NCBI GenBank assembly: GCA_001910725.1
Contig: MJGA01000002.1
Span: forward strand, 1-64,000
From: Phanerodontia chrysosporium
Taxonomy: Eukaryota; Basidiomycota; Agaricomycetes; Polyporales; Phanerochaetaceae
DNA length: 64,000 bases
Reading direction: 5' to 3'
The notes under the pieces are model-generated. The model ran no database searches. It worked only from the letters and a program-made list of their open reading frames with translations, and had not been told where the DNA came from. Below, in pieces: positions 1,081 to 60,589 of the stretch. Each line of letters starts with the position of its first letter. Within the stretch, counting starts at the first letter, position 1. Position numbers and translations under genes: made by a program.

Positions 1081-1774
1081 TGTCGCGGAGCTAGGGCTCA
1101 ACGCTTCACGAGGGAGGGCAAGTGGGGAGGTCGACGACAAGGCGCGGCGGAGCGAGTCACGCAGCGACGCACAACTTCTTCAGCTGTCCGTATTGACCAA
1201 GGTGTATTAGCACTAGTAACTAATGTACAAACAACGGGCTTACCTGTCCGTATTGACCAAGAGGTCGAGATGACGGACAGGAGCGAGGGGAGCTACCCTT
1301 ATATACTACAGTACTCTAGGGCAGGCTGTACGATTACCTAAGCTGATGGGCAGTGCTTGGCATAGCCAGCGAGGCTGCGACGCGGACTGCGCGGCGAGGC
1401 TGTGCGGGGGCTATGTCACGAGGCTGTGTCAGCTGGCAGTGTCTCGAGGCTGCGTCGGGCCGAGGCTGTGTCATCAGGCTGATCAGCTCGGCGTGTCTCG
1501 GCGAGGGGAGTCATCAGGGATGACAGTGCCTCCTCGGCGATCCGGGGAACCGGTTGCAAGGCAGACCGGTGATCCGGGCGGTGTCTGAGCGCGCAGCGGG
1601 ATTCGCTGGCGTCTAGGGGTGATGCGCCATCAGGGCGCTGGCGCTGCATGGCCAGGCGCTGAGTGTGGGCGGCTAGGACTCCAGACGGCGCGAGGGCTGC
1701 TCGCCCGTTGGATTAATCGAGGAAAATAGCCAAAAATCGGCGAAAAATAGGGCAGCACCGTCACATCCGTGACA
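1081..1774 (-). repeat. solo LTR, 694 bp, minus orientation
   Basis: This is an inverted copy of the LTR at 3444-4137. Both are exactly 694 bp and look roughly 90-95% identical by eye. Read on the minus strand it begins TGTCACGGATGTGA, the complement of 1761-1774, and ends with the complement of 1081-1090, giving TG...CA termini. Flanking pentamers are cctaa (1076-1080) and agcga (1775-1779), so there is no target-site duplication. That points to rearrangement or deletion after insertion. Two copies of a 'gtccgtattgaccaag' motif lie at 1186-1203 and 1244-1261. No internal retroelement coding sequence adjoins it. Confidence 0.85.
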
Positions 1775-1847
1775 AGCGACACTTCGCCTCTCGTCGGCCC
1801 GCCAGTCCCTTCGGGCCTGGCGGTTGCAAGGGGTATATATCCCAGTA

Positions 1848-1922
1848 GGAAACCGCTGATGAGTCTTCACGACGAAAGCTCAGCGCGACACAACAGTGTC
1901 GGCTGCCTTCGGTTTTCCTGTG
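1848..1922 (+). ncRNA. hammerhead ribozyme motif, type I topology
   Basis: The complete catalytic core is present. CUGAUGA lies at 1856-1862. Stem II pairs GUC (1863-1865) with GAC (1871-1873) across a UUCAC loop. GAAA follows at 1874-1877. Stem III starts with A1877-U1908 and G1878-C1907. After a small internal loop it continues CAGC 1881-1884 with GCUG 1902-1905, then CGACAC 1886-1891 with GUGUCG 1896-1901 under an AACA loop. The predicted cleavage position is U1909, in a CUU triplet satisfying the NUH rule. Stem I pairs GGAAACCG (1848-1855) with 1910-1918, allowing one bulged U. A strong GC-rich hairpin (1798-1823) lies just upstream. The motif sits 73 bp from the end of a solo LTR. Self-cleavage is inferred from the fold only. 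Confidence 0.75.
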
Positions 1923-2244
1923 AAGCATTCTGCGCTCGCCGCTCGCTACGCTCGCGTCTCGCGCCCCCCAAACCCTAAAGCGATGATGTGAGATGGAGCG
2001 TGTGCATGAGAGCACGGGCAGGAACGTAGCACGCATGTGGGGATAGAGTGCCTGGAGCCGGTTAGAGCTGGGGCTCATAACCTGTTGAACTTGCGGTTCT
2101 CAGGGGGCTCGCGCAGGCGTCGGAAGCGACAGACAACGGCGTCCAAGTAGCAGGCAGAATTGCCTAGCCGCGAAGCACTCAGTGCAAGCGTGTAACCTGC
2201 AATATTCGACAGGCCACAGCGAGTGAGTGTACGAGCGAGCGTAC

Positions 2245-2741: not shown

Positions 2742-3443
2742 CGGTGGGCAAAGCTTTCTCGTCTCAACCACGTCTCCTACCTGAACGCTATGCTCCACAG
2801 ATCGGGAACCTTGTCATGGCACCCGTGTTTGCCAGGCTCAATACAGATAGCACATTCTACATCTTCGCTCAAATTCGGCAGGTATGACTGGGCTGATCGC
2901 AGGCAGTGACTGAAGATTTTGTACTGGTGCGTAACTTTCTCGAGTTCGTGCACTTGTTCGAGTTGCTTTCCTGGTTGGAAACCTCACACCGATGCTAACG
3001 CAACTGAACTTCATTCGGTGCACCATATCTGCTTCAATATCGTCGACGTGATACTGACTCTGTGTGAAGGATGACCAAGATGTTGCGCCCTCTGTACGGA
3101 CATGTCAACATCACCGCGGGCCTGGTCAAGTGACAAACGACCACTCTCCAGCTCGGTGATAGACCTTCCTTATATCGTCTGTCATTGGTGTTACCCGCAG
3201 GGGACATGCTGCTGGACTCCGGTGTGCTCTTGACCTTTGCAGACCTGCGCGTGAAAAGTAAGAGAGCCAGTTATCTTGATACAGAGGCCCTGTTCGATGG
3301 GGTGTGGTGTTCAGACACCCTTTCTCAGTGTCGTTGAGTGTTACCGCGCCATCCCGCTCAACTCTAAGCCTGCATGCTGTGTTTCGCTGTCTACGTCCCT
3401 GTGTTTCCCAGGCTCTGCCCTTACGTTAATGCCATGTACTAGT
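2742..3443. other. decayed sequence between solo LTRs, no gene
   Basis: No recognisable coding region. Short open stretches exist on both strands, including an 89-codon one that runs into the LTR at 3444, but none resembles a protein family. Confidence 0.4.
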
Positions 3444-4137
3444 TGTCACGGATGTGACATCGCAGCCCTATTTTTCGCCGATTTTTGGCTATTTTCCTCG
3501 ATTAATCCAACGGGCGAGCAGCCCTCGCGCCGTCTGGAGTCCTAGCTGCCCACGCTCAGCGCCTGGCCACTCAGCGCCAGCGCCCTGATGGCGCATCACC
3601 CCTAAATGCCAGCGCATCCCGCTGTGCGCTCAGACACTGCCCGGATCACCGGTCTGCCTTGCAACCAGTTCCCCGGATCGCCGAGGAGGCACTGTCATCC
3701 CTGATGACTCCCCTCGCCGAGACACGCCGAGCTGGTCAGCCTGGTGACACAGCCTCGGCCCGACGCAGCCTCGAGACACTGCCAGCTGACACAGCCTTGT
3801 GACATAGCCCTGGCACAGCCTCGCCGCGCAGCCCGCGTCGCAGCCTCGATGGCTATGCCGAGCACTGCCCATCAGCTTAGGTAATCGTATAGCCTGCCCT
3901 GAACTCCTGTAGTATATAAGAGTAGCACTCCTCGCTCCTGTCCGTCATCTCGACCTCTTGGTCAATACGGACAGGTAAGCCCGTCGCTTGTATTGTAGTA
4001 TACACCACTAATAGATCTTGGTCAATACGAACAGCTGCATAAGTTGTGTGTCGCCGCGTGACTCGCTCCGCTGCACCTTGTCGTCGTCATCCCCATCCGC
4101 CCTCCCTCGTGTAGCGTTGAGCCCTAGCTCCGCGACA
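3444..4137 (+). repeat. solo LTR, 694 bp, with 5-bp target duplication
   Basis: The element begins TGTCACGGATGTGACA at 3444 and ends CTCCGCGACA at 4137. It is flanked on both sides by ctagt (3439-3443 and 4138-4142), a perfect 5-bp target-site duplication. It has a TATA-like tagtatataagag around 3910-3922. Two copies of cttggtcaatacggacag-type sequence occur at about 3957 and 4017; the first is followed directly by a splice-donor-like gtaagc. No gag or pol adjoins it, so it is a solo LTR left by LTR-LTR recombination. Its superfamily cannot be told from the LTR alone. Confidence 0.9.
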
Positions 4138-5060
4138 CTAGTGACAGGTATTTCAGAATATGAACAGTTTGCATCACCCGTGTCATCAAAGGATGGTCAA
4201 AACATCCCCCTCCCTAACTCATGCTATCTGCGCACAGGAAAAACTGGTCTACCGTGCAATCCGCCGGCGTACCCTGTGCATGGGTAGTATATGCTACGAG
4301 AATCCTGATTCTGATGTGCAGACAGTTGACATAGGTCAATAATCTTCACAGCAAGGTTATAGCAGTATATAATCTGGTCCTGAAGACTACATCCATTTTA
4401 TCAATAGGTGTAAGGCACGTAGCATTATGTCAAACCTATATAATCTGTGTCATCACATATATACACTTGTAAGGCCCGTCATGGCGCCTGTGGAAATGTG
4501 ATGTTCTTGCACTTCGCGAGTGGTCTACGGGAACACGTGTGTGCAAGGAGTACGACAGCACCGTAGCCGTGCAAGAATTGAAGACTGTCATGAAATTCCT
4601 GCAGGAGTGGAAGGCCAAGCATCCAGACTGGTACCACACATTCATGCACAAGGTATACCTCAATGTCTGGTGCGTACTTACAGTCCTTGTTGTCTTCCCT
4701 CGAGTGATCCCATGCTGTACTTGTGGTGGCTATGATACTCCCTCGGCTCTTGAAAGCGAGCAAAACTTTAATCTCGTGATGTCGCTGACATGCCCTCCTC
4801 CTTTATAGTGTATACAACGAGCATCTAGGTACATATGTATACAATCATATTGTTGATTTCCATCCCGGAAACCATGCACGAATCCTGCGAGAACCTGCGT
4901 GAATGCCCGCCAAATGTTCCCGACTGCGCCAAATGTGGCCAAATTCTCTGCCACCAAATCGGGGAACTCATAATTCAGGAAATGCGACAAATCCACCCTT
5001 CGCACCAAATTCGCACAAATTTGGCCACATTCAGCCACATTTGACCGGGGGTTTTCCCTG
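4138..5060. other. intergenic, no recognisable gene
   Basis: This is AT-richer than its surroundings. Several 60-130-codon open stretches occur on both strands with no family resemblance. A segment at about 4900-5040 repeats ccaaat/gccacc-type words. It may be remains of the copia element whose 3' end follows, but only the last codons are recognisable. Confidence 0.35.
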
Positions 5061-36780: not shown

Positions 36781-37390
36781 CCTGAGGAGGCATGCAACTG
36801 CGTCGACTCTGGTTACCTGTGCAGGAGCTACTCGTCAGCACCTTCAGGACTTGCGGATGCCCCGGCCAACCCGTCGCCGCCCACCGAAGACCTGCATTCC
36901 TCACGGGTCCTGCATGCTGTTTATTGTGCTGCGCCATCGGACGCCATAGTGTCATACAACCTCCGTTGCAGCGATGTGGCGTTTGCGCGCGCGCTCTCAC
37001 GCTCTGGACCGCCCGATTGCTCATTGAATGGTGACTGTGCTCCGTGCCGCAGAGCTGCACCGCTGCAATGTTGTCCGTCGCGACAGAGAAACGTGCCAGT
37101 GTGGTCGTGTGTCGAACCGTAGGCGGTGTAACTCGCCTGTGATTCGTCCCTATTTATGCGTATGAAGCTACATTATGACATGTTTTGACATCTCTCAGGC
37201 TCTGTCTGCGCTAAGTGGTCTATCTCAGATGTTCAAGGTGGTACATGAGTGTGGACGAGAATCGACGCGCGGGGTGATCTAATCTTATCTGCCTCAGGCG
37301 TCGGCGTCCTGACTAGAGTTGAACTTGCTGTCGCATGCGTGCAGCTGCTTCCTGCACGTCTCCAGCCACTTCCACCGCGTATTAGATCGA
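36781..37390. other. intergenic, no gene seen
   Basis: Frames of 80-120 codons exist on both strands without family resemblance. No support for a gene. Confidence 0.35.
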
Positions 37391-38997
37391 TATGCACCAC
37401 TGCTTATGCATCAGTGAAGTCTTGCAGGTTATTGCAGACAGCTTTGGGCTCGGCTACGATGGCACGCTACTCCAGATGCGTTGACATGTCGCGCGTGCTT
37501 CGACCCCCCATGAACGCCGTCTGGGGGACGTTGACCGACCCAGCACTCGTCTTTCTTGTCCTCCCGGAGCATCTAAGGATGATTACTCCAAAGAGAGAGG
37601 TGGTGCGTCATGCACCTTCACATCGCGCAAAGCTGCTTACTCCGCGACCAGAGAATCACCGCTCGCAGTTCGAGGAAGAATGGCAGAGGGTGCAGGACTA
37701 CGCACGTCGCGTGCACACAGCGCAGCGAGGCATCAGGATGATATACAGAAAGTCACCCTACTCTATATCCTGGACGTCGATCGCGAGGCACTGCCCGGAA
37801 GGACAGCTTTTCTCCAACCTCCGCAGTTTCACTGGGCAGAGTGACGGCACCCAGCACGATGCGAGCCCAGCGTTTATTCAGTCGACGCTGCGTCGCTTGA
37901 AATACACCTACGCAGCCACGACCAGAAGCGTCAGACCACTCGTTTGTGCTCTGTCGAGATGTTCGGAGATGCTACAAGGCGTAGAGACCAGGCTGCTGGA
38001 AGAGCGGGGCAGGACCGCAGAGACGTTCGCGGAAGACTTGACTAATGCGGTTGCCGAGCTTTCGGTGCTCACATCCTTCAGTATTGGCACCCTTTCCCTT
38101 TTTGCTTTCAAGCACTTCGTCTCTACCTCCACTCTCCGTGATTGACCCTGCCGAGACTGGTCCCTGATGTTGCCTTCCCTCCGGCATCTCACACCAAGTA
38201 TCATTATGCGGATCACGCGCTCTTACCACTGTTCTTCAAGAGGCTGGTTGAGCCCATGATTGAGGAGATTGGTCGCTCTCGACGACTATCGTACCTAGAG
38301 ACGCGGAGCTGTCCAAGCGTTTACAGCCCGCCCGCTAGGCACTGTGTCTTCGCAGTTCCTTTCCTCACTGTCACACCTCCGAACCTTGCAGTCCCTCATC
38401 TATGACGCTACCTGGGTTTCGTCGAAAACATCCGAACCCGAGGACACGCTCACTCTCGAGACGCTCGCTCCGCTGCTCTCGATGCCACACCTAGCAACAC
38501 TCGACATGCGCGCCTGCGTTGCCTTGCGCCGCAGACGTGCTGCCCTCGCGCAGGCGTGGCCGCAGATGCAGAACCTGCGGCTCGGCGACGTCATGTTCGA
38601 CCGCCCCGCAGCCGCCCTCGCGGTCGAAGACATGCTGCCGGTTGCGGAGAAGTGCCCGCGGGTGCACACGCTCGGCCAGCCGGTCTGCATTACAAGCGCG
38701 CCCGCGCGGGCGCATGTGCAGATGGCTGCTGGCGTGCGTTCGCGGCTCGTCGACCTCCATGTGCTCGAGGTCGACGCAGACTTTAGGCGAGATGCTGCTC
38801 TGTTCCTGGCGGAGGCCTTCCCGGCGGCGCATTTCATGGAGAAGGACTACCAAAGGCACTTGAGGAGCTCAATGGTTTGGTCTCTGCGACCGTACGCGAG
38901 CAGTTATCGTAGTCCTGTCGTCATGAATGTGCATGATACGCTTCTGTCGCTCATCGCGCAGAAGCGTCACGGGTTCTACGGGGTCCGCGGCCAGTAG
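37391..38997 (+). pseudogene. F-box / LRR-like pseudogene C
   Basis: It starts like the intact paralogs (ATG at 37391, MHHCLCISEVLQVIADSF) but shifts frame at 37475-37479 and again near 37503. The sequence MNAVWGTLTDPALVFLVLPE then resumes. Later parts match well (EEEWQRVQDYARRVHTAQ; CPEGQLFSNLRSFTG), followed by a stop near 38143. Several further disruptions to about 38340 come next, then the C-terminal leucine-rich part (LETLAPLLSMPHLATLDMR; QAWPQMQNLRLGDVMFDRP) to a stop at 38997. Multiple independent lesions make it a pseudogene rather than an error. Confidence 0.7.
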
Positions 38998-39066
38998 TTG
39001 TGCTCCAACTTGCCAATTCCACCTCCTTCACCACCTCGTGCATTGCTGTCTGTCAATCAGGGAGAT

Positions 39067-39189
39067 GCTGCGCGTGGCTTGACATGTCGCGCCTCCCTCG
39101 AGCCCGCCATGGATATACACTGGTACATGGTGCACAACTCGGGGCAACTCTTTCTAGTGATGCCTCTACCTCAGATCCTCTTCGCGTGA
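39067..39189 (+). pseudogene. small F-box exon remnant
   Basis: LTCRASLEPAMDIHWYMVHN resembles the family segment LTCRAFFDPAMNALWRTL. No other part of the gene is present. Confidence 0.45.
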
Positions 39190-40490
39190 GTCTTGAGGCT
39201 GCTCTCATCCGGCAGTGTGTAGCCTACACTCCAAGATAATTGACCATGCACTGAGACCGTACACTACTACGAGAAATATTGCACAGCTTTGGTGAAGAGG
39301 TGGCCGAGCACGTTGGAACTGAATACAATACATATTGCGCAACACTAGCAATGAATAGAAGTAAGTAGCAGCTACTTACTTCCTACATGGTCAGTAAGCC
39401 AACAATGCTTACTCCATCAGCTTAGTTGCACAGCGCTTCTACTTCAACGACACGCGCTGAGTCCGCACTTCGCCCAGAATCTCGGAAGTTGTCGCTATAT
39501 TGAAAGCCCCCGTATTCAGTCGCTGCGTAAGCTGGTGTCATCGTTCAGTCGACACGGAGACCTACAAGTGCTACAGACAGCCATCGAACGCCTGGATGTC
39601 GTAAGTATATATTTGAAGCCGCTCTGAGTCGCGCTTCACGCATGACTGAACGATGACTCGACAGGTGCATCCACTGCATTCTGAATGTGCAGGCAGATGT
39701 TGCAACTACTTCTGCCTATCCCGAACCAGCCCGCGTCGCGCGTAGGGCTAGACTTCCTCGTCATCCTCACGCTCAATTGCGATAACGCCACGCCTCATGG
39801 GAAGCACGGTGCGCTCTGCGATCTGTCGCTGATGGAACGGAAGCATAGACCCTAGTTCGTTGTGACATGACTCCCTGCAGTTCCGTGGCCTATTCGAGTC
39901 CTCCTCCAGGCATCCAGTGGTGTGCAGCGGTCGAATGGTATGTCTTCCCTGCAATCTGTCCTATCTCGATCCCGCTTTACGACACTCATAGAATATCCCT
40001 GACGGGACCCTTGTAGTGATGTATGCCTCACCCTGACACGCCCATCAAGACACGTCAAGACCAAGTTGCTGATTGTTTGGTGTGCAGCGGAGCCTCGAGT
40101 GGCCATGTTCCTCGGCTGGTGTCGACTCGACCGTGGAAGAGCAACTAAGACCTATGAACGCGTGTAAACGAGATCCAAACATTCCTCTGAATGGCCTACA
40201 GGGTAGCTCGACGATGAATGAATGATCCTTTCGTATTTGAGCGGCGCCTCATGAACACGCCTCTATGGGGTCAGTACTTTGGAAGCCGATACCCTTCTGT
40301 ATTAACCGCGAATTCCTGCAGGAACACGACACGACGCTGCGGCAAGGATTGGCTCCGCATGACTGTCTTGTCTGGTGAGTGCATGTACGCTGCGTGTCCA
40401 TGAGATGTCTGATAAAGCGACCTGCAGCCTGTACATTGGTCCTTTGACAATCCATATCGTCTTCCTGCCCCAACATCTTCTTTTTGTCTC
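39190..40490. other. intergenic, no gene seen
   Basis: Mixed-composition DNA with only short open stretches. It contains the upstream region of the DUF6535 gene. No repeat or gene is recognised. Confidence 0.4.
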
Positions 40491-43172
40491 ATGGCTGGAA
40501 CGGGAGGTGGCAATGGTCGCGCAAAGGCACTGCACCCCGAGGCAAGTAGGCGGTACCTACGTCAACTGGTAACTCATACTCACCCGTTAGCTGCTTTCGC
40601 TTACAGGGCGCGTCGGGGTTGTCAGACTGGGCGGGCATACAAGCACACGTGGCGGATGAAGACGGCGAACGCATACACGGCTACTCTGAAGATGTCGACG
40701 CTATGCTCTTCTTCGTGCGTGTCTCGCGACTGGGCCGTGGTTTATCGTTAACCCAGGTGTATAGGCCGGTCTATTTTCAGCCATTCTCACTGCCTTCCTT
40801 GTCGAGATTTACCACCAGCTACTACCCTCGACTAGCGAAACGATGTCCGAGCTGCTTGCCCAGAACAATGAACTCCTGGCGGCTAATCACCGTCTACTCA
40901 CGCAAGGCTTCTCCGCGATGCTCGAGCAGACATTTTTCAAGCCTTCTCCAGTGGTGCTTGCCGCACGGCCATCCGCCTTCACGTCGTCGACTACGGCCCG
41001 GACCATCAACTCGCTCTTCTTCGTTAGCCTAGTGCTCAGTCTCGCAGCGGCACTGTTCGGGATTCTCGTCAAGCAGTGGCTGCGACACTATATGTCGTGG
41101 CACTCCGCGCTCTCATCACCGCGGGAAAACGTGCTCATCCGCCAGTTTCGGTTCGAAGCGTGGCAGGTCTGGTACGTCGCGATCGTCGTGTCGATGGCCC
41201 TCGCACTACTCGAGACCGCCATGACGCTCTTCCTTATCGGCATCATCATCCTTCTGTGGACGCTCGACAGCGTCGTCGCCATCTGCGTTACCGTCGCCAC
41301 CTCCGTCTTCCTCCTTGTGCAGTCAGTGTTCACGATTCTCCCCCTCGTCTCGAAGCGCTGCCCCTACCGGACGCCCGCGGCATGGACTGTGGTTCTCTTG
41401 TTTACACTGGTCACCCGCGGCCCATCCTACTGCTCACAATGGCTTAGAAGAAAACTTAACGTAGTTCGCATTACGTGGGATCGCAAAGGAGGTGAGCATC
41501 AGAGCTCATTTATGGCCCTCTTGCATGTTAATGACATTCTACTTCGAGCTGCAGCAGAGTCGACGTCCGCCACCGTGCCTTTGGGCGGCGCGACGTCGGC
41601 CTCGCCTACGCAGCCAATGACATTCTCGAAGATTACCAGCGCCATCGACAAGAAAGAAGAGAACGGCACTGATCTAGAATCTCGTGCTACTTTAATCTCA
41701 GGCATGTCGTGGAGGACACGTGACCTGCAGAGCTGTAGGGCCACCCATCGCGGGCTGCACAGACGTGCGGACGTCGCAACACAGGTGCTGAGCGCGACGA
41801 CGCGTATCGCGGAGCGCATTGTGCGCGAGTTCGTACCGCTGCCGAAGGACATCAGTGAATTCCGGGAGATGACGGACTTCATCGCGGACGTGGTCTCGAC
41901 ACACGGCGACCACCACAATATTCCATTCCTCGAGGAGCTCGGCGAGATGGGCTTTCTGCTCGGCGCGCTCTTCTGGGTGCAAAAGTCGGCGCAGGACATG
42001 CAGGTCACACGCTATGTCGAGCAGTGCAGCCGCGTCGAGCTGCGCGACCGCGAAAAAAGCCTCGCATGGTTCCTCAAGGTGTTTTCATCGCGCGGGCCGT
42101 ACGAGGAGAAGCCGACGGAGACTGTCAAGAAGCTGCGGCTGTTCCTTCTCCAGTTCGTCCTCTATGGAATTGGCTATCCTGTCACGTCTGGCATGCAATT
42201 TGAGGCGTATCAAGATGCGGTGCAGAACCATAGGGTCATATATTCCGAAGACGATGAACGCATTGGTAAGCCTCCCCGTTCATCTGTTCACAAGTGTAAG
42301 CAACTAACGGTGTGCCCATAGTGATTCTGGATGGCCAAACCCAGGACGAAGATTACGAATCACTCCTCATGCACTATTTCGGTTCACGCTTTGAACACGC
42401 CAACGAAGACCGCCTCAAGATGTTCGTTCTCACCGCCACCGACTGGCTCGCCCACTGCGGCATATCTGGTGTCTCTCAAGACGTAGTGGAAGATATACTG
42501 TACAAGATGATACACGCAGCGCACGCGCTGTCCAAGGGGCCAAGGCAGAACACAACACGTCCGTCGTACCTCTTCTGGATTTGGAAGCTCTCGGAGGAGA
42601 AGGAGTCGCTATCGGCTCTCTACGGGGCGCAGTACCGCGCACTGCTGCATGCGCTCGAGAAGGCGTACACGCGCGGCATGTTCAGCGCAGACGAGGCGAA
42701 CATCAAGCACAGCCTGCACGTGCAGCTCGTCCGCGCGCACCGTGGCCTCACAAAGGAATCGACACCCTGCGAGGTCCCGCAGTGCGAGTGGGTAGAACAT
42801 ACGACATGCCCCGGGGTGCCGCGGAAACACTACGCAGGCTGCCCCCTGCTCATTGTGCGACCTCGCACGCCCGCGCTGTGGCGCCGCGCAGCGACGGTGT
42901 GCACGGTGCTGCGCATGCGCCGGGCGTGGTTCCACGGGCACCGGCGCTGGCGCCGCGCATTTTGTGCGGTGCTTTTCTTCGTGCGCGTACACCGGCTCGT
43001 GACATCTTCGGACGCTGCATCCCGTCGTCCGCACGCGAGCCCGAGCAGCGCCAGGCGCCATCGGTTACCGCATCACCATGCTCACCATCCGGCGCCAACG
43101 ATGCCACCCGCAGAGGACGAAATCAAGGAGCCTGAATTGACCACGGCCGTTTTGCCCATGTATGCACGTTGA
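40491..43172 (+). CDS. DUF6535-domain membrane protein
   Basis: Member of a large Agaricomycete family of unknown function. Four exons are inferred: 40491-40541, 40607-40714, 40765-42265 and 42322-43172, about 836 residues. Intron 1 uses a GC donor (gag|gcaagt). The N-terminal DUF6535 signature runs DWAGIQAHVADEDGERIHGY, then GLFSAILTAFLVEIYHQLLP, then NSLFFVSLVLSLAAALFGIL ahead of KQWLRHYMSW. A cluster of hydrophobic membrane segments follows (VWYVAIVVSMALALLETAMT; LFLIGIIILLWTLDSVVAIC; VTVATSVFLLVQSVFTILPL), ending at KRCPYRTPAAW. The large C-terminal region is soluble and helical. The last 150 residues are His/Arg/Pro-rich, and their exon structure is less certain. A broken relative lies at 61476-62340. 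Confidence 0.82.
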
Positions 43173-53544: not shown

Positions 53545-54903
53545 TTACTGCGTGATACACTCCGGAGGCAGATCGGAGTCTGTCAAAGTGGAGCTGTTGC
53601 CGGGGGCATCCGCGTTATGAGGAGTCGTATCTCGAGGTGTATACGGAGGTGGAATGATGGTGGGTTCGTCGTTGGAGACACGAGCACGACGGTCGCGACG
53701 ACGTTGACGACGAGATGGGGTATTTGTGTTGCTGTTGGGTGATACCTCATTGAACGACCATCCCCGAGTGGGGCGAGTCTCCCGATAGAGGGGAGCCCAG
53801 ACCCTCTGGTTGTACTGAGGGCGGCGAGGAAGGGGTTCGGTGCGATGAGCTGTCTGGGAGCGAAAGTGGAGTCGTTCGCCGTATTGCACGTGTCCGATGT
53901 TTGGATCGAAGTACGTGTTCCAGACTCCGTCTACCATTTCCACGATGTGGTCGTCTTGTTCTGCGAGAGTGGCAACGAGAAGTTCTTGCTCTCGTTGAGC
54001 ATCGTAGAGATGGTTGAGCTGATCGCGGATTCGTCGGGCCATTCGGACGAGGCGTGGAGCGGCTGTGGATTGGAGCTGTTGGATAAGGTCACCGACAGCA
54101 TCTCGGGTGTTGTCGGTGATGCGTTGGACGTGGATGGTGGCAAGAGCGTAGTTTGCAAATACCGCGCAGGTAGTCGTCGCTCCCTCTTGGAACGCCGTGG
54201 AGCGGAGTGCGTCTCGGGTGACAGGGTGATACTGGATGTTGTTGAGGCGTTCTCGAAATTGGGGCCAATCGCGTTCTGCGGCGAGCTGTTCTTCGTAGGC
54301 ATGATTGGCGAAGTGCCTGACGGTGACGCCGTTCCAGGTCCTTTCTCCATGTTGTCCTGTGACCCCTTCGTGCCAGTCTCCTTCGACATACCAGGGTCTG
54401 TCTTCGACGAGGGTGTCGGAGTTAGAGGTTGCGGGCTCTTGGCTTTCGCCTGGGAGCTCTTGGACGTCAGGGTCTTGGGCATTTGGCTCGGAGGGTGGTT
54501 CTTCTCGGACGGGTTCCTCGTCAACGTCTCCTCTTCTGTCTTCTTCGGCCAGGCGGAGGATCTCAGGGAGGGACGATCCGATGAGTTCTCGGATACGTTC
54601 TTGGGCCTCCCATGCGACGATCCGTCGTTCGACCTCGTCGTCGAAGGCGAGCTGGGATTTGGTGCACCATTCGAGGATGATCTTCCAGAGATCATTTCGC
54701 TCGTTGGGAGTGGGGTTGTTGTTGAGCCAGTCGTTGATGGTGATGTCGATGTTGCGGGTGAAAATGTGGTCAGTGAAGTCGTCTGGGAGGAGTTGGCTAA
54801 GGGCGAGAAGTCGGTCATTGTTGGTGATGGGGATGGTGTCGCTGCCCATGAGGGTAGCGAGGGCCTGGATGCGCTGGTAGGTGGAGGAGAAGTTGGTCGA
54901 CAT
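53545..54903 (-). CDS. third ORF after pol, unknown function
   Basis: 452 codons from a true ATG at 54903-54901, starting about 25 codons after the chromodomain and ending 40 bp before the 3' LTR. It runs in a different frame from pol and overlaps its tail by 973 nt. Composition is typical of a soluble protein. The helical N-terminus reads STYQRIQALATLMGSD and NDLWKIILEWCTKSQLAFDD. An acidic Pro/Glu linker lies at about 115-170. A second helical region includes RLVRMARRIRDQLNHLYDAQ. A basic patch, RRQRRRDRRAR, is at about 398-408, and PPPY at about 418-421. There is no signal peptide or membrane segment, so it is not a classical envelope gene. No family is recognised. Confidence 0.65.
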   Translation of the reverse strand: MSTNFSSTYQRIQALATLMGSDTIPITNNDRLLALSQLLPDDFTDHIFTRNIDITINDWLNNNPTPNERNDLWKIILEWCTKSQLAFDDEVERRIVAWEAQERIRELIGSSLPEILRLAEEDRRGDVDEEPVREEPPSEPNAQDPDVQELPGESQEPATSNSDTLVEDRPWYVEGDWHEGVTGQHGERTWNGVTVRHFANHAYEEQLAAERDWPQFRERLNNIQYHPVTRDALRSTAFQEGATTTCAVFANYALATIHVQRITDNTRDAVGDLIQQLQSTAAPRLVRMARRIRDQLNHLYDAQREQELLVATLAEQDDHIVEMVDGVWNTYFDPNIGHVQYGERLHFRSQTAHRTEPLPRRPQYNQRVWAPLYRETRPTRGWSFNEVSPNSNTNTPSRRQRRRDRRARVSNDEPTIIPPPYTPRDTTPHNADAPGNSSTLTDSDLPPECITQ

Positions 54904-57900
54904 TGCGGAGGGTTTGTAGAGGCAGTTGTACTAGTGGCTGATGTTGTAGAGCGAGGTCGCTGCTGACCATGAAGCCTAGGGTGTCTGCTTTTATATTCTT
55001 CGAGTAGTTCCTTGGCGTTCTCGAGATGAGATTCCGGTTCCCATGAGTTTTCCGCCGTTGGTTGGTCTTTCCACCTGATGAGGTAACGTCTTCCGTTGCC
55101 CCAGGGACGATCCGCCAAAATGGCTTCAACTTCGTACTCCTCGTGACCATCGATAAGGTCAGGAGGGGGGTTCAGGAAGTTTTTCCCATGCTGCGGTGTT
55201 TCATGATACGGAGATAGAAGCGAAGCATGTATCACGGGGTGAATCTTCATGGTTTTGGGAAGCGCCAACTTGTACACGAGGCGCGATAAGACCTTGGCTA
55301 TCTTGAAGGGTCCGTGCCTCTTGGGAGCTAGCTTCTTGAAGGGGTAGCCGTCGTCGTGATGAGTCATTTCCAACCAGACCTTCTGACCTTCTTTGAAAGG
55401 TTGGAAATGCCGGCAGACCCGGGTAGCCATTTGTGCCGTGGCATAATCTAATGCGGCTCCTGCTTCTTCTTGTGCCCGTTGTCGCCTTCTGAACCATTCT
55501 TGAATAGAAGGGACTTTGGACTTGGCGAATTGTGTGGGTAACGCCATTGGGTGAGAACCGTACATAAGGAAGAAGGGAGAATGGTGGGTCGCCGAGTGTT
55601 CCCTATTGTTGAAGGCAAACTCCATATTCGTTACGAAGTCTGCCCAGTCATGCGGGTGGTTGGAGCAGAAGATCCGTAGGTAGGATTCGATTTCGCGGTT
55701 GACGCGTTCTGTTTCACCATCCGTTTGAGGGTGATATGGTGTACTCAGGCGTTGTTCTGTTCCGGTGAGTCTCCATAATTCCCGCATGACTTGCGAGTCG
55801 AACTGTGGTCCCCTATCCGATAGGAATACACTTGGCATCCCGAAGCGACGAAAAACTTGATTATGGTAGTTTGTGGCGGTCGTTATTGCATCGATTTTTT
55901 CGGTGCAAGGGATAAGGATTACCCCCTTCGTAGAATCGTGGTCGACCACGACCATCAGAGCTGAATAGCCGCGGGACACAGGGAGATGAGTGATGAAGTC
56001 ACAGGTGACGAAAGCAAAAGGGCGAGATCGGTGCGTGGCCTTGATCGGCTGTAGCGGCGGTTTCGTGGGATGCGTGTTGACTTTCATCTGTTGGCAGGTA
56101 GCGCAACCTTGCACGTATGCAGCGACAAAGGAGCGCATTCCTGGCCAGTAAAAGTCCCGGTCAATGAGTTCAGCTGTTTTATACCTTCCCGGATGGCCAG
56201 TTATAGGGGAATCGTGATAAAGGTGTGTTACTTGGCGTCGGAGTTGAAGGTCAGATGGAACATAACATTTATCGCGGTAGAAGATGAGGCCATCTTCAAA
56301 TGACCAGTCATCTCGTGTAGTTCGCCCAGGGAAAGGGAGGTGAGTGCTGTTTAGTGCTGCAATGACTGTGTTGGCAAAAGGGTCGTCTTCTGTGAGACGT
56401 CGAATATCCCTTCGGAGGTTGTCATCGAATGGGTGGTGCATAGGAGAGATTGAATGGTCGGTGCTTGTGAGGAGGTCAGTTGCCATGTGCAATGATCGAA
56501 TGCGAGTGGTTTGAAATACTGAGTCGGGGAGAAGAATAATATCGATGTTGTCGTCCGCGGTGTGAGTAGGGAAACGATTGCGGGTCATGGCGTCTGCTTG
56601 AACTAGTTGAGACCCGGGGCAATGATGAAGTGTGTAGTTGAATTGCGAAAGGAATAGATGCCATCGTGCTTGTCGTCGGTTAAGTCGTCGTGGCGAACGG
56701 AAATAAGTTAGATTCTTATGATCAGTTAGGATGCGAATTGGGTGGTATGCTCCATGTAGATAATGGCGCCATGCCTCTAGAGCGCGGATAATTGCCAAGA
56801 GTTCTCTGTCGTAGATTTCGTAGTTCCGTTCCGCTGGTAATAGGGATTGGGAAAGGTATGCGACGGGGTGCCATTCTCCATTTTCATCTTGCTGACGTAG
56901 TACCGCTGCGGTTGCCACAAGGGAAGCGTCGCATTCGATGACGAAGGGTTTAGTGGTGTCCGGAGTGAGTAGGACGGGTGCCGTGGTAAACCGTCTTTTC
57001 AATTCATCGAAGGCTTGTTGGCATTCCGTAGTCCAGTTGAACGGTGCGTCCTTCTTTGTGAGGTCCACGAGTGGGCGTGCAATATCAGAGTAATGGTCTA
57101 TGAATCTTCGGTAGAAATTTCCGAAGCCCAGGAATCCTCGCACTTGCTTTACGGTAGTGGGAACTGGCCATTCTAGGACCCCCTTGACTTTGACGGGGTC
57201 CATTGAAACATTATTGAATGATACAATCATTCCCAAAAATTCAACCGATTCGACGTCGAAGGCGCATTTTTCAGGTTTGACGAAGAGGTCGTTTTCCCGG
57301 AGTCTTCTTATGACGCGAATTGTCTTTTCCTGGATGTCTTGACTGTCGTGTCCGCAGATTAGAATGTCGTCCATGTAGATTTGTAACCATCCTTCGCCTA
57401 GCATGTCCTTGAAGATGTCGTTCATCATTGCCTGGAATGTAGCCGGTGAGTTGCACAACCCGAAGAACATAACCGTGGGTTCAAACAGCCCTCTACTTGT
57501 CTTGAAGGCTGCCTTCCACTGGTCTCCATCTTTAATCCTGACATTGTTGTAGCCCGATCGTAGGTCCATCTTTGTAAACCGTTTGAACCCTTTGATCTTG
57601 TCGAGGAGTTCGGAGATGAGTGGTAGCGGGTATACGTTCTTGACGGTCCCCTCATTTAGATATCTGTAATCTTGGCATGGTCGCAGACTGCCATCCTTCT
57701 TTCCTACGAAGAAGAATGGTGATGCCATTGGAGACTTGCTTGGCCGGATATACCCTTTGCGTAGGTTTTCATCGATAAACTCATTCATCTTCTCCTCTTC
57801 CAACGGCGACAATGGGTACACTTTGCAGTCTCGGGGGACGAAATCTGGCTTGAGGTCAATGGCATGATCATATGGTCTTGATTCTGGGAAGCGTTCAGCT

Positions 57901-59153
57901 GCCTTCTTCTCGAAGACTTCCTTGAATTCATCGAGGTAGTCTGGAATGTAGACTGCTTTCTTCTGCGATCCTTCCTCCTGTGCTAATGTCATTGCCGGAT
58001 TGACCTTTGCGTTGATGTACAGGTCGTGAATTGCTTGTGCGGTTGTGGTTTCAATGGCGCGAACCCATACTTCATGCTTGCCTGGTGTGTATGCTAGCAC
58101 GAAGTCTTCTGTCACTTCTTCATCCTGGTTAACGTAGTCGGATGAGGTGACTTGGAATTGTGGAGGGCATTCAGGATGGGTCGCCATGCGTATTGCACCT
58201 ATCGTGACGTGTAGAAGCCGTTGAAAAGACGGTCCCAAACCAGTGGATCCAAAGCCCTTGCTTCCTCGGGTGGTTTGCGTGAGGTTAGTGACTTCCTTGA
58301 CCTCTGGCTGCATAATCCTTTCTAGGATTATTTGCGCAATTCTATCCCCAGGTTGTACTTGGAATGGTTCCTTGGTGTTGTTGACCAGTATGACCATGAT
58401 TTCGCCTGTGTAATCTCGGTCTACCACTCCCGCGGCAACGTCGATTCCCTTTGATGCTAGCCCGCTTCTTGGAGCTATGCGAGCATACGTGCCAGTGGGA
58501 GGAGTGATCTTTAGTCCTGTCCGGACCTTCATGCGACTCCATGGTGGAATGACGATTGACTCGGCAGAGGAGATATCGTATCCAGCTGCTTCGTCACTTC
58601 CTCTAGTTGGAAGTGTTCCTCCACCTCGTTCAACTAATAAATGTGTGCGTAGAAGAGCCTCTTCTTCCTTTGTGGCTACTTGTATGATTCGTCCTTCTGG
58701 ATCGGCTTCGTCGTCAATGAGAATTGTTCGGGGGGTGAAGTCGATCAAGCCTGTCTTCCAATTAATCCTTGGATTATGCTTTTGCAGCCAGTCAAATCCA
58801 AGGATTAATTCTTGTTTCCCTAGATGGGTGACGAGAAGTCGTTCCTTCATGGTCTTGCCCTTGATTACCATTTCGGCGTTAACGTAGTTTCTGATGTTCC
58901 CTATCCTGTTCGGTGTTCCGTCGACATTGTATACTGCTATTGGTTTCTCCATTGGATGTTCTTGTAACCCGAGCTTTCGTACCAGAGATCGATCGATGAA
59001 CTTGCCCTGCGCGCCCGAATCGATGAGAGCCTTGGTTGTTCCGGCATTTGTACTCGTTCTGATGGTGACAGGAATATTTATCGATTGCGCTTGCATATCT
59101 GCCACCAATACAGAATGAATCGAGTATCTCTGAGGAGTGACAGCCGGCGTCAT
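53931..59153 (-). CDS. pol: Pol polyprotein: protease-dUTPase-RT-RNase H-integrase-chromodomain
   Basis: 1,740 codons. Aspartic protease with LIDSGA at residues 43-48. A dUTPase domain at about 175-305 has all five motifs: DEAAGYDISSAE, PRSGLASK, GVVDRDYTGEI, GDRIAQIILE and RGSKGFGSTG. Reverse transcriptase carries YMDD at 593-596. RNase H includes ECDASLVATAAVLRQ near 740. Integrase has an HHCC zinc site (H980, H987, C1017, C1020) and D1052, D1113, E1149. The chromodomain spans about 1338-1392 (YEVEAILADR...YLIRWKDQPTAENSWEP). The last about 340 residues are Ser/Thr/Pro-rich and overlap another ORF in a different frame, so Pol's true functional end may be just after the chromodomain. Confidence 0.93.
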   Translation of the reverse strand: MTPAVTPQRYSIHSVLVADMQAQSINIPVTIRTSTNAGTTKALIDSGAQGKFIDRSLVRKLGLQEHPMEKPIAVYNVDGTPNRIGNIRNYVNAEMVIKGKTMKERLLVTHLGKQELILGFDWLQKHNPRINWKTGLIDFTPRTILIDDEADPEGRIIQVATKEEEALLRTHLLVERGGGTLPTRGSDEAAGYDISSAESIVIPPWSRMKVRTGLKITPPTGTYARIAPRSGLASKGIDVAAGVVDRDYTGEIMVILVNNTKEPFQVQPGDRIAQIILERIMQPEVKEVTNLTQTTRGSKGFGSTGLGPSFQRLLHVTIGAIRMATHPECPPQFQVTSSDYVNQDEEVTEDFVLAYTPGKHEVWVRAIETTTAQAIHDLYINAKVNPAMTLAQEEGSQKKAVYIPDYLDEFKEVFEKKAAERFPESRPYDHAIDLKPDFVPRDCKVYPLSPLEEEKMNEFIDENLRKGYIRPSKSPMASPFFFVGKKDGSLRPCQDYRYLNEGTVKNVYPLPLISELLDKIKGFKRFTKMDLRSGYNNVRIKDGDQWKAAFKTSRGLFEPTVMFFGLCNSPATFQAMMNDIFKDMLGEGWLQIYMDDILICGHDSQDIQEKTIRVIRRLRENDLFVKPEKCAFDVESVEFLGMIVSFNNVSMDPVKVKGVLEWPVPTTVKQVRGFLGFGNFYRRFIDHYSDIARPLVDLTKKDAPFNWTTECQQAFDELKRRFTTAPVLLTPDTTKPFVIECDASLVATAAVLRQQDENGEWHPVAYLSQSLLPAERNYEIYDRELLAIIRALEAWRHYLHGAYHPIRILTDHKNLTYFRSPRRLNRRQARWHLFLSQFNYTLHHCPGSQLVQADAMTRNRFPTHTADDNIDIILLPDSVFQTTRIRSLHMATDLLTSTDHSISPMHHPFDDNLRRDIRRLTEDDPFANTVIAALNSTHLPFPGRTTRDDWSFEDGLIFYRDKCYVPSDLQLRRQVTHLYHDSPITGHPGRYKTAELIDRDFYWPGMRSFVAAYVQGCATCQQMKVNTHPTKPPLQPIKATHRSRPFAFVTCDFITHLPVSRGYSALMVVVDHDSTKGVILIPCTEKIDAITTATNYHNQVFRRFGMPSVFLSDRGPQFDSQVMRELWRLTGTEQRLSTPYHPQTDGETERVNREIESYLRIFCSNHPHDWADFVTNMEFAFNNREHSATHHSPFFLMYGSHPMALPTQFAKSKVPSIQEWFRRRQRAQEEAGAALDYATAQMATRVCRHFQPFKEGQKVWLEMTHHDDGYPFKKLAPKRHGPFKIAKVLSRLVYKLALPKTMKIHPVIHASLLSPYHETPQHGKNFLNPPPDLIDGHEEYEVEAILADRPWGNGRRYLIRWKDQPTAENSWEPESHLENAKELLEEYKSRHPRLHGQQRPRSTTSATSTTASTNPPQCRPTSPPPTSASRPSLPSWAATPSPSPTMTDFSPLANSSQTTSLTTFSPATSTSPSTTGSTTTPLPTSEMISGRSSSNGAPNPSSPSTTRSNDGSSHGRPKNVSENSSDRPSLRSSAWPKKTEEETLTRNPSEKNHPPSQMPKTLTSKSSQAKAKSPQPLTPTPSSKTDPGMSKETGTKGSQDNMEKGPGTASPSGTSPIMPTKNSSPQNAIGPNFENASTTSSITLSPETHSAPRRSKRERRLPARYLQTTLLPPSTSNASPTTPEMLSVTLSNSSNPQPLHASSEWPDESAISSTISTMLNESKNFSLPLSQNKTTTSWKW

Positions 59154-59161
59154 CCTCTTAG

Positions 59162-60589
59162 TTAAAAATTCTTCTGAGTCTCCGTGGTCTCATTGTCGTT
59201 GGTCTTCGAGCGCGTTGAATAATAGCGAGTGGCGAGTTCGTCGAATTGTTGCATGGACAAGGCCATGACGGCGTTGATGTCAACTTGGTTCGTGTTAGAG
59301 GTTCCTTCGTTGGTTTCGTCCTTTCCTTCGACTTGTGTTGCCCTGATCTGGGTTCGACTGTTGCCCCGGTTTGACGTAAATTGGCGTGTGAATCCGCCTC
59401 GTCCGGGGTTGTTCCTTCCTTGTCCACGCCCGTTGCCTTGTTCGTTCTGCTCTTGGTTACGGCGTGGGGCTCGGCATTCTCGTGCAATGTGCCCTTCTCG
59501 TCTACAATTGTAGCACTTGACTCCAGTCTTCCTGGTGGTGATGGCGTCGATCTCCATTGCATTGGGATCAGGAGTGGACGTAGTGTTGGAGTTGGAAGTG
59601 GTGGAATGATTGGAGTAGTGCGTGTGGTCTTTACGCTGCCGGATTGATTTGACAATGCGTCTTCTATTGTCGATGATGAGGGCATGATTCTGCCAAAGGG
59701 ATAGAGGGGCGTGATCCGGTACAACGAGGAGGAGTTTGTCGACGAGTTTATGATCGAGGGCGCGTACATATTGTTGCGCCATGGATTCATCAGCGTCGGG
59801 GTTAATGACACCTGCTTCGGCGAGAAGGGTATTGAATTCCACATTGAATTCGTGGACGGATCTGTCGCCTTGCGTAATGGCATGGAGCCTGCTCATAGCT
59901 TCCGCTCTGGGATCTGGTGATTGGTATGTGTCGAGGAAGTCTGCCTTGTGCTTGTCCCATGTGGGGAATCCACTGAGTAAGTAGATTCGCTCTCGCATGG
60001 TGGCCCATCGTCTAGGGTACTTCTTTCCTTCGTCCTTCATTCTTGAGTCGAAGTAGCGGATCTTAGATTCGTCGGTGGGGAACTTGGAGGCTTTGGCTCT
60101 AAAGTACATCTCGCATTGGTGGACGAAGTCGCGAGCCTTCTCGGCTTCTCCAGTGAATTCTTCCGGGGGTGTCATCTGTTCGTCTTGTGGTACGAGGGCC
60201 CGTATTGCCGCTGTGAAGGCTGCTAAGACATTCTGGTCGAGGTTGGATGGAGGTTGCGGCCCGTTGCCTCCTCCTCCTGGGGAATTGCCTCCTCCTCCTC
60301 CTGGCGGATTGCCTCCTCCTCCTGGAGGATTACCTCCTCCTCCTCCTGAGGGGTTGCTTCCACTTCCTTGGCCGAGGTTTCCGTAGTGTGTGAACCATGT
60401 TCCGCTCGAGTTCACGGCCTGGTTTATGGCTTGTTGGAATAGTGCGACGGATATGCCATTAGGGTTTCCCTGAAACCCAACTCGTTGTGCCACTGCTGCG
60501 AGTAATTGTTCGACGGGTAAATCGTCGAGGTTCTGTATCGTGTTTGTTTCTTGGCGTGTTTCGGTTTCCAGCTGTGTTTCGGTGGCCAT
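59162..60589 (-). CDS. gag: Gag of the Ty3/gypsy element
   Basis: 475 residues from the first ATG. There is a Gly/Pro-rich tract at residues 78-109, encoded by tandem repeats at about 60262-60358. The capsid-like region at about 135-320 contains PPEEFTGEAEKARDFVHQCE and GDRSVHEFNVEFNTLLAEAG. A single CCHC zinc knuckle, CYNCRREGHIAREC, lies at 359-372. A Gln/Asn/Arg-rich tail follows. The stop is followed 8 nt later by the pol ATG in the -1 frame, so Pol is probably made by reinitiation or by frameshifting through the U-run at the end of gag. The classical X-XXY-YYZ heptamer is not present. Confidence 0.9.
   Translation of the reverse strand: MATETQLETETRQETNTIQNLDDLPVEQLLAAVAQRVGFQGNPNGISVALFQQAINQAVNSSGTWFTHYGNLGQGSGSNPSGGGGGNPPGGGGNPPGGGGGNSPGGGGNGPQPPSNLDQNVLAAFTAAIRALVPQDEQMTPPEEFTGEAEKARDFVHQCEMYFRAKASKFPTDESKIRYFDSRMKDEGKKYPRRWATMRERIYLLSGFPTWDKHKADFLDTYQSPDPRAEAMSRLHAITQGDRSVHEFNVEFNTLLAEAGVINPDADESMAQQYVRALDHKLVDKLLLVVPDHAPLSLWQNHALIIDNRRRIVKSIRQRKDHTHYSNHSTTSNSNTTSTPDPNAMEIDAITTRKTGVKCYNCRREGHIARECRAPRRNQEQNEQGNGRGQGRNNPGRGGFTRQFTSNRGNSRTQIRATQVEGKDETNEGTSNTNQVDINAVMALSMQQFDELATRYYSTRSKTNDNETTETQKNF

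Follow-up and report, generated by a model that had tools for sequence, protein, structure and literature searches.

We analysed a 64,000-nucleotide (nt) stretch of the genome of the basidiomycete Phanerodontia chrysosporium (contig MJGA01000002.1, positions 1 to 64,000; hereafter, the window) and confirmed that a segment near its start (1847–1919, forward strand) is a type I hammerhead ribozyme motif, for which self-cleavage is predicted. Sequence comparison across the genome indicates that the motif lies in a remnant of the 3′-terminal part of an autonomous Penelope-like element (PLE) that encodes a reverse transcriptase (RT). We consider it probable that the ribozyme serves as a 3′-terminal device of this telomere-associated, endonuclease-lacking PLE, in a mechanism of the kind proposed below.

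A type I hammerhead motif

The motif can be read directly from the window. Stem I (1847–1855 paired with 1910–1919) leads into the CUGAUGA core (1856–1862), stem II (1863–1873; 3 base pairs (bp), GUC/GAC, between 1863–1865 and 1871–1873, with a G–C closing pair and the loop UUCAC) and the GAA core (G12, A13 and A14; 1874–1876), which is followed by A15.1 at 1877. Stem III (1877–1908) comprises 12 bp with a CU/C internal loop, a bulged G and an AACA loop (1892–1895); starting from the A15.1–U16.1 pair (1877–1908), its order is A–U, G–C, the internal loop and then CAGC-G-CGACAC paired with GUGUCGGCUG. The cleavage-site triplet is CUU, with the cut predicted 3′ of U1909. The invariant core CUGANGA…GAA(A)…UH, the three helices and the open stem I are those of a type I hammerhead. 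A preliminary description, made from the window sequence alone, had called a full-consensus motif with every invariant core position in place and a cut after 1909; the listed pairs and a descriptor scan bear this out, and our predicted cut site agrees. It had counted 8 bp in stem I, where we find nine pairs and a single bulged U (U1916). The GC-rich hairpin that it noted upstream is also present (1799–1823, forward strand) and, by alignment, is common to the other complete copies with few changes.

The hammerhead descriptor matched the window once when both strands were scanned, compared with one match in 60 first-order Markov shuffles. A motif-based pattern gave 28 matches in the whole genome, 27 of them in the PLE family and a single stray one outside it (C59:399678); the reversed control pattern gave none. 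The 82-nt hammerhead piece has a folding z-score of −2.26. Neither Rfam nor energy-based folding favours the motif, as detailed below.

None of the 13 core positions varies across 28 complete copies. Variation in these copies reaches 3 of 4 positions in loop III and 0 of 18 in the core plus loop II, with 7 of 46 stem positions, 1 of 5 other motif positions and 25 of 123 positions outside the motif affected. Because most copies are 96–99% identical to the window piece, conservation says little. Paired cells account for 99.2% of the hammerhead stems among copies, against 99.0% in shuffles, and the covariation analysis found one pair altered on both sides, a result that 71 of 500 shuffles equalled. 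The most diverged copy (L028, 91% identity) keeps the hammerhead fold, with a C–G pair changed to U–A at 1886/1901, a U–G pair at 1884/1902, a G–U closing pair in stem II and one mismatch, which lends weak support to a ribozyme.

A Penelope-like carrier element

A search of the 39-Mb genome with a 181-nt query (window 1780–1960) returned 29 matches, a lower bound, which we grouped into 22 insertions using copy C21-1 as the ruler. Paired matches are spaced 4,710–4,713 nt apart and bracket one open reading frame (ORF) of 1,266 amino acids, giving a unit of 4,712 nt. As in other PLEs, tandem or partially tandem copies form pseudo-long terminal repeats (pLTRs; 7 of 22 insertions) and the hammerhead is present in the pLTR, where it sits ~85–155 nt 5′ of the start codon, at the end of the 3′ untranslated region of the preceding unit. 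The ORF is open in seven copies, with dN/dS values of 0.04–0.17 that indicate purifying selection, and the single protein search made of the genome, which would also pick up divergent families of this PLE, gave 15 matches (87–100% identity). The preliminary description had foreseen a ribozyme-bearing mobile element; its further suggestion that the element is non-autonomous does not hold.

All 22 insertions share a 3′ end through AAACCCT and vary at the 5′ end. Seven exceed one unit: C21-1 (5,662 nt), C55b (5,424 nt), C21-2 (5,368 nt), C82b (5,032 nt) and C88 (at least 5,033 nt), together with C63 (5,533 nt) and C51 (5,531 nt), both of which include some telomere fusion. The 5′ end of C114 (4,711 nt) lies no more than 3 nt from exactly one unit. 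The other 14 are below unit length as seen, down to ~205 nt in the window; C88, C67 and C44b end at contig ends and C89 at the end of its locus, such that their lengths are minima and C67, C44b and C89 are possibly longer. Copies C21-2, C88 and C51, which have different 3′ flanks, align over 5.0–5.4 kb with no mismatches and no more than two gap positions; three copies at different sites without a mismatch over at least 5.0 kb imply recent movement of the element. Two copies, C82b (36954–41985) and C55b (716692–722115), have a 5′ repeat from one subfamily and a 3′ repeat from another, and are possibly composite elements generated by recombination or template switching between subfamilies. C85b is mosaic in appearance.

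The window copy is a dead stub: a 5′-truncated PLE 3′ terminus of 205 nt (1775–1979, forward strand), delimited by alignment with the 29 genomic matches and ending in AAACCCTAA(A).

Encoded protein

Structural modelling suggests that the 1,266-amino-acid protein is a telomerase-like RT. For the RT model (611 amino acids; predicted local distance difference test score, 85.6), Foldseek and VIA-align both rank telomerase first, followed closely by other RTs; in the fold comparison, the RT of a diversity-generating retroelement ties with telomerase within 1 Z. The match to RVT_1 is slightly under the cut-off (28.4 versus 29.6 bits). A PDB sequence search with the single protein returned no matches and a PDB profile search none that was significant, the best (E = 0.072) being to an RT. 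Relatives of the protein are 39–62% identical (120 listed of 238), and those listed include proteins of Bondarzewia mesenterica and Fibroporia radiculosa, both Agaricomycetes. No Pfam GIY-YIG domain was detected in the protein at E ≤ 10, and the single GIY-YIG match in the genome (C95:7942–8232) is outside all 22 insertions.

Association with telomeres

The host is a Phanerochaete-like fungus, with a Sec23 that shares 97% identity with the Phanerochaete sordida protein over 92% of the query. The host telomere repeat is (TTTAGGG)n; the usual fungal repeat is TTAGGG. A 28-base telomere pattern matched 94 times, always on the reverse strand and never on the forward strand, on eight contigs: C51, C55 and C63 (at the contig end), C21, C57, C60, C64 and C121. 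The unit's own 3′ end, seen at seven unit–unit junctions, is AAACCCTAA. In the window, the proposed priming site AAACCCTAAA (1970–1979, forward strand), which is complementary to TTTAGGG, lies 60 nt 3′ of the cut site, and AAACCCT is found at the 3′ end, 60 nt beyond the cut site, in all 22 insertions. At 12 of the 22 3′ junctions, the telomeric register extends to 13 nt or more. At the contig ends of C51 and C63, the 5′ end of the element is capped by telomere repeats. C21 carries a stack of two insertions, separated by 24 nt in telomeric register; beyond the outer insertion come an interrupted telomeric array of ~140 nt and more subtelomeric DNA. The distance to a contig end is at most 15.5 kb for 15 insertions and at most 54 kb for every one of the 22. 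With reverse-complement telomere repeats at the 3′ end and the 5′ end directed towards the nearest contig end in 18 of 22 cases, the element has the arrangement of a telomeric PLE; on contigs longer than 100 kb, insertions within 15.5 kb show this polarity without exception (11 of 11).

We propose that the 3′-OH of a TTTAGGG overhang, or of an eroded or broken end, would pair with AAACCCUAA in the element RNA and prime reverse transcription. Priming of this kind would not need an endonuclease and would extend chromosome ends, and we regard it as likely. Some features of the insertions tell against it. Ten of the 22 3′ junctions have at most one telomeric base past the element's own nine, and so some insertions are not visibly telomeric. 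Four (C44a, C85a, C117 and C21-1) do not have their 5′ end towards the nearest contig end, and the place of C21-2 among the 18 rests on a near tie. Moreover, contig ends are enriched in repeats in any assembly because repeats break assemblies, which makes the contig-end excess weak by itself; stronger evidence comes from the capped 5′ ends and from the consistent polarity (11 of 11).

A few 5′ flanks are common to truncated copies that have different breakpoints, joined at an AT of the element (loci L038 1–4865, L047 1–4882, L042 1–3160 and L039 1–2316; also L036, L048, L049 and L037). One flank, ending in …GGTACCAGTAAAAAACCAGTATA, occurs in C44a, C82a, C135, C114 and C55b; another, ending in …GCAAGAATCTAGGCATA, occurs in C55a, C117, C73 and C82b. 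The former terminates a long subtelomeric repeat that has ~1.5-kb inverted arms and, in one copy, no ORF longer than 151 amino acids. At the 3′ junction of C117 (L027), AAACCCTAA is followed by GGTACCAGTAAAAAACCAGTATAAT, the subtelomeric-repeat tail that elsewhere lies on the 5′ side of the element.

Terminal repeats and the copied template

In five of the seven long insertions the two terminal repeats match. They are identical in C21-1 (950 nt), C21-2 (656 nt) and C88 (321 nt); in C63 and C51 there are no mismatches outside the telomere fusion (798 and 814 positions, respectively) and one 1-base indel each. By comparison, the 3′ repeats of different lineages show 12–29 differences over 948–950 positions. 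Simple inheritance from a tandem locus does not predict matching terminal repeats. The unit junction reads AAACCCTAATCAA in all seven cases with no added bases (in C82b, a single extra A follows it directly), and no poly(A) occurs at the element 3′ ends (22 junctions).

These repeats could have been copied from a circle. Hammerheads in both terminal repeats would cut the transcript to an exact unit-length RNA, which would be re-ligated such that the tail AAACCCUAA becomes internal to a 4,712-nt circle. Copying that passed its start point once would give an insertion longer than one unit with the junction AAACCCTAA–TCAATCGAG, and both terminal repeats would derive from the same template. A hammerhead-made, unit-length circular template is plausible, if slightly disfavoured in our judgement. 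The full cycle, in which a coding circle is primed by TTTAGGG on the internal AAACCCUAA and copied for more than one lap, regenerating two matching ribozyme-bearing repeats with each insertion, is unlikely as stated. If true, it would be a renewal cycle like that of long terminal repeat (LTR) elements, with a ribozyme in the place of strand transfer, and chromosome ends would be extended from a circular template. The circle therefore stands as a live hypothesis beside the fold-based and template-jump models discussed below.

Several observations weigh against the circle. The repeats differ in two of the seven long insertions, C55b (32 of 712 positions) and C82b (11 of 319), which misfit a single circular template and could be composites. 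Because C21-2, C51 and C88 belong to one lineage, the five matching cases amount to three independent lineages, and the 321-nt repeat of C88, which differs from C21-1 at 1 of 321 positions, is hardly informative. The six measured long insertions (C88 excluded) cluster at 5.03–5.66 kb, or 1.07–1.20 units; such lengths fit a bounded linear template more readily than unrestricted copying around a circle. Energy models also prefer a competing fold to the hammerhead by 2–9 kcal/mol. For a lizard PLE, disabling the hammerhead did not impair insertion of the RNA in vitro, the protein was required for cleavage, and the cut site was neither the start nor the end of any read (PMC11167929).

Most of these points fit an alternative in which the hammerhead is mainly a 3′-terminal fold that presents AAACCCUAA to the G-rich overhang, cleavage is incidental or trims read-through, and tandem units come from tandem loci. 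Such presentation has been proposed for the Terminons of rotifers, in which a hammerhead precedes a reverse-complement telomere repeat (PMC6431247). The alternative accommodates the insertion of cleavage-dead lizard RNA, the 1.07–1.20-unit lengths and the unlike repeats of C55b and C82b. It also accommodates the position of the predicted cut: this lies (after 1909) 60 nt 5′ of AAACCCUAA (1970), so that, on a linear transcript, a 3′ ribozyme would sever the priming tail. However, inheritance from tandem loci predicts repeats as unlike as those of different insertions, whereas those of C21-1 (0 of 950) and C63 (0 of 798) match, private variants included; gene conversion between repeats could rescue the model. 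The invariant core is a further point against it, although background variation outside the motif is also low. We judge this alternative quite possible but not probable.

A circle would likewise be unnecessary if the RT completed one RNA (5′ UCAAUCGAG, 3′ AAACCCUAA) and jumped to the 3′ end of a second, creating the junction AAACCCTAA|TCAATCGAG. With end-to-end jumping, the repeats would match when copied from the same source RNA and differ, as in the two mismatched insertions, when the source RNAs were different. It also covers C114, which begins so close to one unit. Template jumps, however, usually add bases, and none are seen at the seven junctions; the lack of poly(A) at 3′ ends also counts against jumping, which we consider improbable.

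It is more improbable still that the motif is not a working ribozyme but a chance or decayed hammerhead-like region, conserved only through the youth of its copies. Their near-identity and the 71 of 500 shuffles with equal pair statistics would fit this explanation, as would the folding energies: the hammerhead reaches −26.3 kcal/mol compared with −28.3 kcal/mol for the best fold of the 82-nt piece (nearest-neighbour energies), and is 8.9 and 7.8 kcal/mol worse than the best fold with 40 and 80 nt of flank, respectively. Rfam at gathering score gave no matches over the window or over locus L039, where another copy lies, and Hammerhead_1 (RF00163) reached only 11 bits (E = 6.4; cut-off, 34 bits) and misplaced the 3′ strand of stem I. 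Genome searches with RF00163 and RF00008 gave no matches, and neither search recovered its controls. We rejected the Rfam negative as proof that the motif is absent, given the unrecovered controls and the mis-paired stem I; since the Rfam model scores sequence and not the chemical definition, we claim the motif and not Rfam membership. Against a non-working region stand the fit of all 13 core positions and three stems, the rarity of matches in shuffled windows, the focus of variation in loop III with none in the core and loop II, and a terminal-repeat placement that matches known PLEs. The preliminary description would have given up its reading if a folded transcript did not cleave with Mg2+, the covariance score fell below threshold and related copies were absent; the score does fall short of the threshold, yet related copies abound (29 matches), and so the three do not hold together.

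A retrozyme, a hammerhead-bearing short interspersed element (SINE) or a DNA copy of a viroid-like or ambivirus RNA, of which the preliminary description had entertained retrozyme, SINE-like and viroid-like origins, would suit the short, non-coding window copy but can be set aside almost entirely: the stub corresponds to the tail of a 4,712-nt unit that encodes an RT and not to a small non-coding unit, the 22 insertions have a common 3′ end with variable 5′ truncation and no fixed short unit, and the adjoining LTR comes from a separate family. In a viral contig collection, the hammerhead pattern matched five stretches, and four pattern matches concerning protein-level relatives included none that was confirmed.

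Other features of the window

As the preliminary description had noted, a solo LTR adjoins the ribozyme-bearing insert: it occupies 1081–1774 (forward strand; TGTC…GACA) and abuts the element at 1775. The stub edges read GACA|AGCGA on the 5′ side, GACA being the LTR end, and AAACCCTAAA|GCG on the 3′ side. The LTR is flanked by CCTAA and AGCGA without a target duplication, and the AGCGA on its 3′ side is PLE sequence. The 5′ side of the stub was probably replaced when an LTR inserted into a PLE copy and then underwent ectopic LTR–LTR recombination, which would explain the missing target duplication. A second, inverted solo LTR (3444–4137, reverse strand) has the target duplication CTAGT at 3439–3443 and 4138–4142. 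The LTR family is dispersed, with 41 matches, many of them paired ~7 kb apart. We considered whether the LTR is part of the PLE and rejected this, as the LTR also occurs deep inside contigs, for example at C44:420651, more than 400 kb from both contig ends.

Elsewhere in the window, a 35-nt sequence (ATTATACCTAAACAYGACGGCGCGAAGCGCGTAAG) with an inverted CGCG..CGCG core occurs as two direct repeats, 70 nt apart, at 2246–2350. The coding region of a chromodomain Gypsy-type LTR retrotransposon, with a gag ORF and a pol ORF, spans 53931–60589; an in-frame dUTPase lies between its protease and RT.

Comparison with known systems

Coprina-type PLEs of basidiomycetes, reportedly described by Gladyshev and Arkhipova in 2007, are said to be endonuclease-deficient and telomere-associated. 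The fungal element resembles them in host group, telomere association and absence of an endonuclease, and very probably belongs to the same clade. The HeT-A and TART elements of Drosophila make terminal, polar, stacked additions to chromosome ends; they are of the non-LTR class, are not known to carry a hammerhead and differ from our case in that telomerase-type repeats persist in the fungal host. No hammerhead in a basidiomycete PLE was recognised in a literature search, which key papers on PLEs and hammerheads lay beyond. Telomere-linked Penelope elements are recorded in Agaricus bisporus (PMC7473861), and five Hammerhead_3 matches in Pleurotus, with no element given in the passages covered (PMC5040776).

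Among PLEs, both the canonical and the telomeric forms offer parallels. Terminons are likewise not known to have an endonuclease. They are described as attached to telomeres in head-to-tail arrays, with a 3′ hammerhead directly before a reverse-complement telomere repeat, and the Terminons and Athena elements of bdelloid rotifers share with the fungal element this order and 5′ truncation by telomere repeats (PMC6431247). The architecture itself is therefore not new. Terminons differ in being giant and having minimal hammerheads, whereas the fungal element is a compact, single-ORF unit of 4.7 kb with a 12-bp stem III. One review describes PLE and Terminon hammerheads as minimal, without helix III or tertiary contacts (PMC7761336); a 2017 review states that all PLE sequences then available bear hammerheads, usually minimal and without helix III (PMC6155905). 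Canonical PLEs (Penelope and Poseidon) have the same tandem pLTR arrangement with a hammerhead in the repeat, but possess a GIY-YIG domain, and the lizard PLE targets AT-rich sites and has its hammerhead at the ORF start (PMC11167929). Plant LTR and animal non-LTR retrozymes similarly carry a hammerhead per repeat and have a circular RNA intermediate (PMC6155905 and PMC7761336), but they are small and non-autonomous, whereas the fungal element encodes its own RT.

The part that hammerheads play in PLEs and Terminons is described as unknown in a 2020 review (PMC7761336). The element described here offers a tractable case, with a fungal host, intact near-identical copies and paired repeats that record the copied template; its hammerhead has a full stem III and is possibly able to cleave in monomeric form, and whether a ribozyme makes a circular template for end extension would become directly testable. 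As far as checked, what is new relative to these systems is a compact fungal telomeric PLE with a 12-bp stem III hammerhead and insertions that make the role of the ribozyme testable.
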